Of a DNA stretch of 38,831 nt, positions 787 to 3,495 are shown one piece after another. The notes beneath the pieces were generated by a model. The model worked only from the letters and a program-made list of their open reading frames with translations. It had not been told where the DNA came from and did no database searches. This DNA is from Syntrophomonas sp. DTU019 (GTDB lineage: Bacteria > Bacillota > Syntrophomonadia > Syntrophomonadales > Syntrophomonadaceae). Location of the stretch: assembly GCA_001512785.1 (NCBI GenBank), contig LFSQ01000038.1, forward strand, positions 1 to 38,831, given 5' to 3'. The translations under genes and the position numbers were made by a program. Each line of letters begins with the position of its first letter. Position 1 is the stretch's first letter.

Positions 787-960
787 ATGACTATTCCAGA
801 CAAAGAGATTCGCAAGGCAAACCGCCTGATTCGGGAGAAATCTCCCTATCTTTTACAACATGCTTATAATCCCGTTAACTGGTATGCCTGGACCCCTGAA
901 GCCTTTCAGAAGGCTGCCAGCGAAGACAAACCAGTCTTTTTATCCATAGGCTATTCTTAG
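787..960 (+). CDS. YyaL/DUF255 thioredoxin-domain protein, N-terminal segment (57 codons) ending at UAG
   Basis: An ATG at 787 follows AAAGGAG at 774-780 and opens a 57-codon frame that matches the N-terminus of the YyaL/SSP411 family ([20 protein letters not shown], then [10 protein letters not shown]). In family members the chain continues directly into STCHWCHVM. Here a TAG stop (958-960) follows the Ser codon TCT at 955-957. The missing continuation resumes 52 nt later in a different frame at 1010. The segment holds the first strands of the thioredoxin fold and cannot be functional alone. It is either the 5' part of a broken gene or the take-off side of a translational bypass. Sequence conservation up to the stop shows decay has not begun or coding is still under selection. 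Confidence 0.85.
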
Positions 961-1009
961 CCCCTCAAGGGGCTAATGATTTTAGGGAAAGCGCAGGTAT
1001 AATTTGTCT
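958..1009 (+). other. 52-nt element interrupting yyaL: UAG-containing hairpin and matching UCU codons (bypass-like)
   Basis: Removing 958-1009 exactly restores the family sequence GYS-TCHWCHVM and joins frames that otherwise differ by one base. The element begins with the stop TAG and with a hairpin: 957-964 pairs with 969-976 (8 bp, TCAA loop), so the stop codon and the last base of the preceding TCT codon lie in the stem. The element ends with TCT (1007-1009), the same codon that precedes it (955-957). An AGG (995-997) lies ten bases upstream of the second TCT. This arrangement resembles the T4 gene 60 coding gap (identical take-off and landing codons, immediate UAG, take-off stem-loop, about 50 nt). 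Alternatively it is an insertion with a 3-bp target duplication that kills the gene. Confidence 0.6.
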
Positions 1010-2902
1010 ACCTGTCACTGGTGCCATGTAATGGAAAGGGAGTCATTCGAAGATGATGAGGTAGCCCGGTTATTAAATCAATATTTCGTAAGCATCAAGG
1101 TGGATCGCGAAGAGAGGCCGGACATTGACACTGTGTATATGAATGTCTGTCAGGGTATGACCGGCCATGGGGGATGGCCTCTCACCATTATAATGACCCC
1201 GGATAAAAAACCGTTTTTTGCCTCTACTTATTTGCCCAAACATGATCGCAGTGGCCTCGCTGGCATGATGAGTATTCTGCCGCGCATAGCTGAAATCTGG
1301 CAGACTGATAAGCTCTCCTGCTATGAGGTCGGCAATCGCATAAATGACTGGCTGAAACAGGCTGGCACATTAGCCCCAAGCCATGATAAAATCAAGGCTG
1401 ATGCTTTCGATAAAGCCTTTCAGTATTTTGCCCATGTCTATGACCCTGAGTATGGCGGATTTGGCAATGCGCCTAAATTTCCAACCCCTCATAATCTCTA
1501 TTTCCTGTTGCGTTACTGGTACTATACCGGGGAAGAATTGGCCCTGGAAATGGTGGAAAAAACCCTGCAATGCATGTACAAAGGCGGTATATATGACCAT
1601 ATAGGCTTTGGTTTTGCCCGCTACAGCACCGATAGATTCTGGCTGGTTCCTCATTTCGAAAAGATGCTTTATGATAATGCCCTTTTAGCCATTGCTTTTG
1701 TGGAGACTTATCAGGCTACCGGAAAGGAGCTATATGCCCGCATCGCCCGGGAGGTGTTTGCTTACCTTCTGCGAGAAATGACCTCGGCCGAAGGAGGCTT
1801 CTATTCAGCTCAGGATGCTGATTCGGAAGGTGAGGAGGGAAAGTTCTACCTGTGGACACCAGCCCAGGTGGTGGAGGTTCTGGGTGATTCCGCGGGTATG
1901 AAATTCTGCTCCTATTATGGCATAACCCCGCAGGGCAATTTCGAAGGCAAGAGTATACCCAATCTGCTCAATTCTGAATTTCCTGAAGAGGAACGGCAGC
2001 AAATCGAAGCTATGCGCTTAAAGCTCTTTGACTCCCGCTCGCAGCGGGTCGCTCCGTTCAAGGATGACAAGATCCTCTTATCCTGGAACGGGTTTATGAT
2101 CGCTGCCCTGGCTTTGGGCGGGAGGGCCTTCAATGAACCGTTATATATTGAGAAGGCTCAGGCGGCTTTGGCTTTCATGGAGAGCCATATGCGGGTTGGG
2201 GGGCGCTATATGCTGAGATACCGGGATGGCGAGGCGGCTCATCCTGCTCTGGCAGAGGATTATGCGGCTCTGGTATGGGGGCTGTTGGAAATGCATCGCA
2301 GCACTTTAAAACCCTCTTATTTGCAAAAAGCCCTGCAAGTCAATGCAGAAATGGTTAACCTTTTTTGGGATGAAGAGCAGTACGCTTTCTTATATTATGG
2401 TAAAGACAGTGAGCAATTGCTCATAAACCCCAGAGAGGTCTACGACGGCGCGATACCTTCGCCCAATTCGCTGGCAGCAAGGAATTTGGTGTGGCTGGGG
2501 CGGTTGACCGGCGACCAGGAAATCAACCGCCGGGCCGAGATGATATTTGCGGCCTTTTCCGAGCAGGTGAGCCATAACCCCTGGGCCCACGCCTATTTCC
2601 TGCTGGCGGCCATGGCCAACCATTATGCGGGGAAAGACATCATCATAAGAGGGGACTGGCATGAGCAAGGCACCCGGGAAATGATCTTTAGGCTAAACCG
2701 GGCATTTGTGCCGGACACCACCCTGGCGTTAAAGACCGACCAGGACGAACTGCTGAGCCAATTGATCCCTTTCAGTAAAGCAATGCACAGGGTCAACGGC
2801 CAGGTGACAGCTTATGTATGTGAGGCTTTTGCCTGCCGGGAGCCGGTATTCTCGGCGGAGCATTTATATCAAGTCGTGACCAGCAGTCAGCATGAAGCTT
2901 AG
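1004..2902 (+). CDS. YyaL/SSP411-like thioredoxin-domain protein (DUF255), main body
   Basis: This frame encodes the rest of the family: the CHWCHVMERESFED active-site helix of a thioredoxin-like fold (CxxC), followed by a long (alpha/alpha)6-barrel-like region related to N-acylglucosamine 2-epimerases, with the family blocks YGGFGNAPKFPTP, GIYDHIGFGFARYSTD, FEKMLYDNA, FYSAQDADSEGEEGKFYLW and PSPNS. With the 57 upstream codons joined at 1010, the product would be 687 residues, about the normal family length. No frameshift or stop occurs in 630 codons. A TTG at 1004 could serve as start but lacks a good ribosome binding site and would remove the N-terminal strands of the thioredoxin domain. 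Biochemical function of the family is poorly known. Whether the protein is made depends on the 52-nt interruption. Confidence 0.85.
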   Translation: MSTCHWCHVMERESFEDDEVARLLNQYFVSIKVDREERPDIDTVYMNVCQGMTGHGGWPLTIIMTPDKKPFFASTYLPKHDRSGLAGMMSILPRIAEIWQTDKLSCYEVGNRINDWLKQAGTLAPSHDKIKADAFDKAFQYFAHVYDPEYGGFGNAPKFPTPHNLYFLLRYWYYTGEELALEMVEKTLQCMYKGGIYDHIGFGFARYSTDRFWLVPHFEKMLYDNALLAIAFVETYQATGKELYARIAREVFAYLLREMTSAEGGFYSAQDADSEGEEGKFYLWTPAQVVEVLGDSAGMKFCSYYGITPQGNFEGKSIPNLLNSEFPEEERQQIEAMRLKLFDSRSQRVAPFKDDKILLSWNGFMIAALALGGRAFNEPLYIEKAQAALAFMESHMRVGGRYMLRYRDGEAAHPALAEDYAALVWGLLEMHRSTLKPSYLQKALQVNAEMVNLFWDEEQYAFLYYGKDSEQLLINPREVYDGAIPSPNSLAARNLVWLGRLTGDQEINRRAEMIFAAFSEQVSHNPWAHAYFLLAAMANHYAGKDIIIRGDWHEQGTREMIFRLNRAFVPDTTLALKTDQDELLSQLIPFSKAMHRVNGQVTAYVCEAFACREPVFSAEHLYQVVTSSQHEA

Positions 2903-2931: not shown

Positions 2932-3495
2932 ATGGAAACGATGGAATGCATCTTAACCCGCAGGAGTATTCGCAGTTTCATCCCCGATAAGGAGATAGCA
3001 GAGGAGACTATGCGCCAGCTCATGGAAGCGGTGCGATGGGCCCCGTCCTGGGCCAACACCCAGACCTGGGAGGTAGTGGTGGTTAAAGATCGCGATTTGA
3101 AGCAAAAGCTGGTTGATGCGGCCGGTGCCAATCGTGCTGCACAGGCCATTCTCGATGCCTGTGCAGTGATGGTGTTCTGCTCCCGCCGCGGTATTGCCGG
3201 GGCCAAGCAGGGGGAGTATTCGACCAATAAGGGAGACTGGTATATGTTCGATTGCGCCCTGGCCGCTCAGAATTTCTGCCTGGCGGCGCACAGCATGGGT
3301 CTGGGGACGGTTTATATCGGCCGTTTTGAACACCGGCAGGTCGATACTTTACTGGGCTTGCCCCAGGGTATAGAATCGGTGGTCATGATACCCCTGGGCT
3401 ATCCGGCCGTTAAAGAGGTCAAAGCCCCACCCCGCAAAGCCTCGAGCGAGTTCGTGCATGCCGAAAGGTTTGGCCGCCGCTACTTCGAAGGCTGA
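2932..3495 (+). CDS. Nitroreductase family flavoprotein
   Basis: A 187-residue FMN-dependent nitroreductase-like oxidoreductase that would reduce nitro, quinone or related acceptors with NAD(P)H, usually as a dimer. The N-terminal motif ILTRRSIRSF carries the FMN-phosphate binding arginines; APSWANTQTWEVVVV supplies the Ser/Asn/Gln ring contacts, and MGLGTVYIG together with VVMIPLGYPA form the rest of the flavin pocket. The ATG at 2932 follows AAGGAGG (2917-2923); an ATG at 2928 is out of frame. The gene starts 29 bp after yyaL and may be cotranscribed. It ends before a clear terminator. Natural substrate is unknown. Confidence 0.88.
   Translation: METMECILTRRSIRSFIPDKEIAEETMRQLMEAVRWAPSWANTQTWEVVVVKDRDLKQKLVDAAGANRAAQAILDACAVMVFCSRRGIAGAKQGEYSTNKGDWYMFDCALAAQNFCLAAHSMGLGTVYIGRFEHRQVDTLLGLPQGIESVVMIPLGYPAVKEVKAPPRKASSEFVHAERFGRRYFEG

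Follow-up and report, generated by a model that had tools for sequence, protein, structure and literature searches.

In the window, the 38,831-nucleotide stretch of Syntrophomonas DNA analyzed here, the yyaL gene (DUF255/Thioredox_DsbH, PF03190) is split at Ser57|Thr58 by 52 nt (958–1009). Comparison with its relatives makes it very likely that a large serine recombinase (LSR) element left this insert behind as an attP half-site and that ribosomes bypass it, making a joined YyaL. It is likely, too, that phages and integrative elements hide an attachment half-site in a bypassed gap and that ribosome hopping keeps the host gene alive, an arrangement by which the integrase could use a conserved protein-coding site and the host could keep the gene. 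Read directly from sequence are the junction, its stop, the matched codons, selection, the LSR neighbors, the 5′ fragments of yyaL, the palindromic attP sites and the mosaic ancestry of the gene.

The window junction, on the forward strand like all features given here, reads GGC TAT TCT TAG ... TCT ACC TGT CAC TGG, with the proposed take-off codon TCT (Ser57) at 955–957, an in-frame TAG directly 3′ of it at 958–960 and the proposed landing triplet TCT at 1007–1009. An earlier note on this DNA had described a UAG directly after one UCU and a second UCU at the insert end, and had claimed that deleting the insert restores the family sequence; both descriptions are borne out, and omission of 958–1009 regains GYS-TCHWCHVM. 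Its statement that the two parts remain intact in different frames also holds: the 5′ half (787–957, 57 codons) and the 3′ half from Thr58 (1010–2902, 630 codons) are both open, they match PF03190 profile positions 2–47 and 48–160, respectively, and 52 mod 3 is 1. The source genome (assembly 92.8% complete) contains no second copy of the 52-mer, further copies of which the note had thought worth seeking, and no second PF03190 gene or intact covering paralogue. By the look of their sequence, the genes flanking yyaL at 87–539 and 2932–3495 are of the OsmC and nitroreductase types.

At least 71 Bacillota yyaL genes, duplicates removed, are interrupted at the identical Ser|Thr junction. Their inserts are 11–58 nt long (one of 59 nt occurs in viral contigs), and every insert found begins with a stop, TAG, TGA or TAA, as in TAGTGTAGTTTATCG of L064. 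The genes were collected with a degenerate pattern, proven on known cases and then applied to genome contigs, which returned at least 120 stretches. Roughly half were true yyaL genes; going by their titles, those among the matches listed are all from Bacillota. Within the order, a stop-independent pattern found inserts in 9 and an uninterrupted match in 29 of 63 genomes; within the phylum, 24 of 399 genomes had inserts, and all inserts in both sets were stop-led. Because the sample is pattern-based and the gene count a lower bound, these frequencies are rough. The comparison with related genomes that the note had proposed thus yields independent genomes, belonging to other genera and families, whose yyaL is interrupted at this very junction, and two uninterrupted genomes of the same genus (G002, G003). 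Assembly error, another reading the note had allowed for, is not the explanation, since the same structure is present in single-contig genomes (G023, G184, G239, G260, G435) and in isolates. On a tree of the 3′ half, well-supported branches require at least 10 changes of insert state, and parsimony counts 18–19. The interrupted gene is usually the sole copy; among 25 genomes, a complete additional yyaL occurs only in G026. One genome, G449, has two yyaL genes, both interrupted, whose inserts differ (L211, G449:C27, and L212, G449:C28).

The note had offered a plainer alternative, an insertion that inactivates yyaL; the interrupted copies would then be pseudogenes, and a 3-bp target duplication would account for the matched triplets. 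It is true that LSR elements insert into the gene and that a few copies are broken, with fragments at L054, L060, L064 and L115. Nevertheless, both halves are otherwise open, and dN/dS is about 0.1 in pairs with a common insert (3′ half, 0.12 for L011/L014 and 0.11 for L085/L123) and 0.06–0.15 for the 3′ part in interrupted pairs. As read from such comparisons, purifying selection is acting on both yyaL halves. Nor would inactivation place a stop first in every insert or keep the codons on its two sides matched. The landing triplet and the take-off codon agree at 70% of bases; at other offsets within the insert, agreement is about 22% (16–26%). At the middle and third bases, the match has a permutation p = 1e-5. 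TCG is paired with xxG in 23/23 cases, TCA with xxA in 4/4 and AGC with xGx in 10/11, and the matching persists at saturated divergence. The window pair is exact (TCT/TCT), the sole Gly case is Bacillus xiamenensis (take-off GGT, landing GGA), and poorly fitting landing triplets include TGA or TGT for AGC and TAG for TCG. Synonymous codon choice ahead of the stop is locked, too. We distinguish a short class of inserts of 15–25 nt, which holds most members, from a long class of 30 nt or more; in the short class, TCT, ATT and GGG are used in 42, 41 and 41 of 50 genes, compared with 6, 15 and 9 of 34 uninterrupted ones, and in the long class GGC is used in 17 of 19. Inactivation, a poor fit to the stop, the codon match, the selection and the synonymous lock, is thus very unlikely. 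The matched codons, locked synonyms and low dN/dS instead fit programmed ribosome bypassing, a reading that the note had put forward and that the comparison strongly supports; it is further favored by the leading stop and by the use of all frames: insert lengths are evenly spread over the three residues modulo 3, and nearly all downstream frames are open.

The frame of resumption bears on two further alternatives, the first being a programmed +1/−1 frameshift or stop readthrough at the Ser-stop site. The RF2 (prfB) site combines a stop after the P-site codon with a G-rich motif three bases 5′ of that codon, and the ribosome slips by one base there. The GGG-UAY-NNN-stop arrangement of the short class resembles that site, and the resume frame is open throughout 21 of 71 inserts. 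However, the other 50 contain a stop in that frame, among them all 25 inserts whose length is a multiple of three (0/25 open); moreover, reading through the insert would set variable residues beside the active site and would not need the landing match, and yyaL would have to skip 11–58 nt rather than one base. We regard a frameshift or readthrough as extremely unlikely. The second alternative is that two polypeptides are made, by termination at the stop and re-initiation within the gap. Long inserts do have a Shine-Dalgarno (SD)-like motif before the landing triplet, and an in-frame TTG or ATG lies near it in the window and in L140, but an in-frame ATG, GTG or TTG is present in only 14 of 71 inserts, in several inserts an in-frame stop falls exactly where reading would resume, the next ATG comes after the CHWC motif, and the short inserts have no SD-like motif. 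Re-initiation, which would also leave the match to the take-off codon unexplained, is very unlikely. With the resume frame closed in 50 of 71 inserts and starts in 14, we reject frameshifting, readthrough and internal initiation as general explanations.

Two signals that could assist bypassing are confined to the long class, to which the window belongs. The 8-bp, stop-containing stem-loop with a UCAA loop that the earlier note had drawn is present at 957–976 (957–964 paired with 969–976), although the 67-nt fold around the junction is unexceptional as a whole (z −0.84). Most long inserts likewise hold the stop in a hairpin stem, with TAG pairing to CTA and TGA to TCA. We found no hairpin in the short class (mean fold z +0.16) and reject it as a general feature; the T4-like hairpin architecture that the note had proposed therefore stands for the long class but not for most members. 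The AGG that it had noticed before the second UCU is at 995–997, within an SD-like AGGU (995–998), and lies nine bases from the landing codon rather than ten. In 18 of 20 long inserts, where 4.7 were expected (P = 3.5e-11), an SD-like 8-mer precedes the landing triplet at a fixed distance; short inserts lack it. Since this motif lies inside the recombinase arm described below, both recoding and recombination may hold it in place. In the short class, UCU-AUU-GGG-UAY is locked before the stop, and GGG is not favored in uninterrupted homologues; by analogy with prfB, it may serve here as a miniature Shine-Dalgarno sequence.

The source of the insert is suggested by its neighbors. An LSR gene or remnant lies within 1.4 kb upstream of 18 of 65 interrupted yyaL genes and of 0 of 29 uninterrupted ones (p = 0.001), with the available upstream length varying; an LSR was found, then, beside only 28% of interrupted genes. 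In G239, a 519-aa LSR (PF00239, PF07508, PF13408) ends 171 nt before the take-off region, and the same domain set is present at the element end in L184 and L188. Some genomes have extra yyaL 5′ fragments that end directly after TGGTG, on the same strand and upstream of the full gene, at distances of ~2.4 kb in B. xiamenensis, 8.4 kb in Paenibacillus spiritus and 94 kb in G239; Alicyclobacillus ALC3 has two, 165 and 387 kb upstream. The window contig ends 786 nt upstream of yyaL, and the evidence of displaced fragments comes from other genomes. Annotated phage records hold one yyaL 5′ fragment only.

When the insert side is joined to the other end of the element, the reconstructed attP sites are palindromes with the common center CAYT|GG. 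Matching outer bases number 15/20 in G239 (p 2e-4), 13/20 in Anaerocolumna G447 (ACTTGCTTTTA..TAAAAGCAAGT), 12/20 in P. spiritus G455 (TTGATTCACA..TGTGAATCAA) and 17/20 in ALC3; one pair from Petroclostridium X23 is also palindromic, G457 has two palindromic pairs, and palindromes recur in the viral contigs L218, L219 and L224 (free phage or proviral ends). Viral L219 carries AGGTATAATCT, the same motif as AGGTATAATTT of the window insert. Matching motif and center mark 994–1019 of the window (AGGTATAATTTGTCT + ACCTGTCACT, center between 1019 and 1020) as a putative attP arm, and the conserved TCHWCH codons (1010–1027), within which the truncated copies end after TGGTG and the palindromes have their center, as the putative core of the recombinase target (attB). 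Palindromes reach p < 0.05 in about half of 18 junction pairs, some of which represent one element family; they are not significant in G464, G460, G063, two X23 pairs, one of two Sporomusa pairs, L215 and L223, and in non-palindromic pairs the fragment and gene ends may come from different elements. The palindromic attP with its common center therefore identifies the insert as a recombinase arm, and on this reading of the junctions it would be, in the window too, the attP half-site of LSR elements that swap the 5′ half of yyaL. Of the bacterial bypass element that the note had envisaged, the bypass itself finds support, but the insert, unlike the yeast byps, is no mobile unit in its own right. 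Group I or II introns and inteins are ruled out by inserts of 11–58 nt that begin with a stop.

Removal of the gap from RNA or DNA, by splicing or developmental excision, has a precedent in LSR elements such as SPbeta in spsM, which excise in sporulation (PMC4191935). We nevertheless hold it to be most improbable in yyaL: gaps of 11–58 nt are too small for intron features, and excision by an LSR would return the displaced 5′ half, not take out the arm alone. Bypassing of the attP arm is the reading that we favor, although some elements manage without it. In G024, G033 and G065 (L254, L255, L256), elements of 1.3–7.7 kb lie between a 5′ fragment and a full, insert-free yyaL, and in G065 the other arm resembles coding sequence (GGTTTATTTGGCC vs GGTTATTCGAC). 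Since these elements restore yyaL without an insert, the bypassed gap is one of two solutions. Elements may also be stacked. X23 has three 5′ fragments upstream of full yyaL and ALC3 has two (L185, L203, L197, L199–L201). These fragments suggest that elements have integrated successively at the same point, which would make the yyaL CHWC site a repeated landing place. In G239, the left end of the ~94-kb element (L183:2328–7278) has methylase-like and helicase-like ORFs that look by eye like a restriction-modification system.

The ancestry of the window gene differs between its halves. The 5′ half is 88–94% identical in amino acids to interrupted genes of other genera and of another family and 72–74% identical to its own genus, whereas the 3′ half is 75–79% identical to its own genus and 52–55% to the others. 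By this identity pattern, the window yyaL is a mosaic of a foreign-like 5′ half (787–957), which would be an element-borne replacement module, and an own-genus 3′ half (1010–2902), which would be host-derived. A parallel case is Clostridium tagluense and Clostridium sp. CF012, whose 3′ halves are 93.5% identical in nucleotides; in the 5′ half, the present C. tagluense copy is only 69% identical to that of CF012, and its displaced fragment is 86% identical. Upstream of the window gene, 672–761 encodes a C-terminal remnant of a decayed LSR, ~29 codons long (TNQEKIRLFATIIGRDYFTGQALIEIEYW, followed by a stop), that aligns with the C-terminus of the LSR upstream of yyaL in L193 with a score of 68 (shuffles 19.3 ± 3.9, 0/2000 as good) and also with L189 (49) and L010 (48). 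An LSR HMM gave no match to this remnant; only aligning it directly with the nearest related sequences brought it to light.

We propose that an LSR element integrates at the yyaL codons for CHWC and supplies its own upstream region together with a yyaL 5′ half that ends in a Ser take-off codon followed by a stop. Integration would place this element-borne half before the host 3′ half and move the old 5′ half to the far end of the element. Once Ser57 has been added and UAG occupies the A site, not every ribosome would terminate; in some, peptidyl-tRNA-Ser would release UCU, and the ribosome would slide across the gap, aided in the window by the stop-containing hairpin and by the AGG nine bases before landing. 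Re-pairing at the second UCU and resumption at Thr58 would then produce the intact TCHWC active site. We infer the hopping, its efficiency and the roles of the hairpin and AGG from the sequences.

Apart from yeast mitochondria, efficient bypassing is so far known from essentially a single case of bacterial type, T4 gene 60, and more are called for in a major review (PMC5009743); the cases reviewed also include a probable Streptomyces phage and an unconfirmed Prevotella report (PMC5009743). In gene 60, 50 nt are bypassed in a programmed manner (PMC5009743, PMC11194080), and the gap has been linked to a mobile nuclease. The yyaL junction shares with gene 60 a stop after the take-off codon, matched codons, a gap of ~50 nt and resumption that may fall in any frame, and its long class shares the take-off stem-loop and the SD-like motif before landing. 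It differs in being a bacterial chromosomal gene of many species, in using a Ser (once Gly) rather than a Gly tRNA, in having a hairpin-free class of 15–25 nt, in a gap that would be a recombinase attachment arm, and in being known from sequence alone. The nascent-peptide stimulator of gene 60 is KKYK, whereas the peptide upstream of the yyaL gap is the conserved DUF255 N-terminus. The byps of Magnusiomyces capitatus mitochondria (PMC5009743) are likewise coding-gene inserts tolerated by translation, with imperfect codon matches allowed, but the yyaL inserts occupy one fixed site in one bacterial gene, would be moved by a serine recombinase and are each stop-led.

With respect to origin, the closest parallels are islands and prophages that rebuild their target by carrying a replacement gene end and leaving the displaced fragment at their far end (PMC12884075); in yyaL, by contrast, the ribosome would complete the reconstitution and the attachment arm stays in the reading frame. 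SPbeta in Bacillus subtilis spsM (PMC4191935) is also a prophage in a Bacillota protein-coding gene, but spsM is cut until excision in sporulation, whereas yyaL would stay usable with the element integrated. Among open-licence papers, we found no earlier report of yyaL/DUF255 as a bypass site or LSR target, and none of a target-rebuilding island that relies on the ribosome to complete the repair. The combination of a bypassing-like mechanism with an origin as an integrase attachment site appears to be new. If correct, it would make yyaL a widespread, repeatedly acquired natural bypass site in which one short sequence is both recombinase arm and recoding signal. Annotation tends to call such genes broken or two ORFs, and similar cases are therefore possibly hidden among pseudogenes. 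The dozens of natural variants, with two signal architectures, make the rules of take-off and landing testable by comparison, and the carriers include cultured organisms: Clostridium ljungdahlii (with the junction AGC-TGA..19 nt..ACA), Paenibacillus, Sporomusa, Desulfosporosinus, Anoxybacillus and Bacillus xiamenensis.
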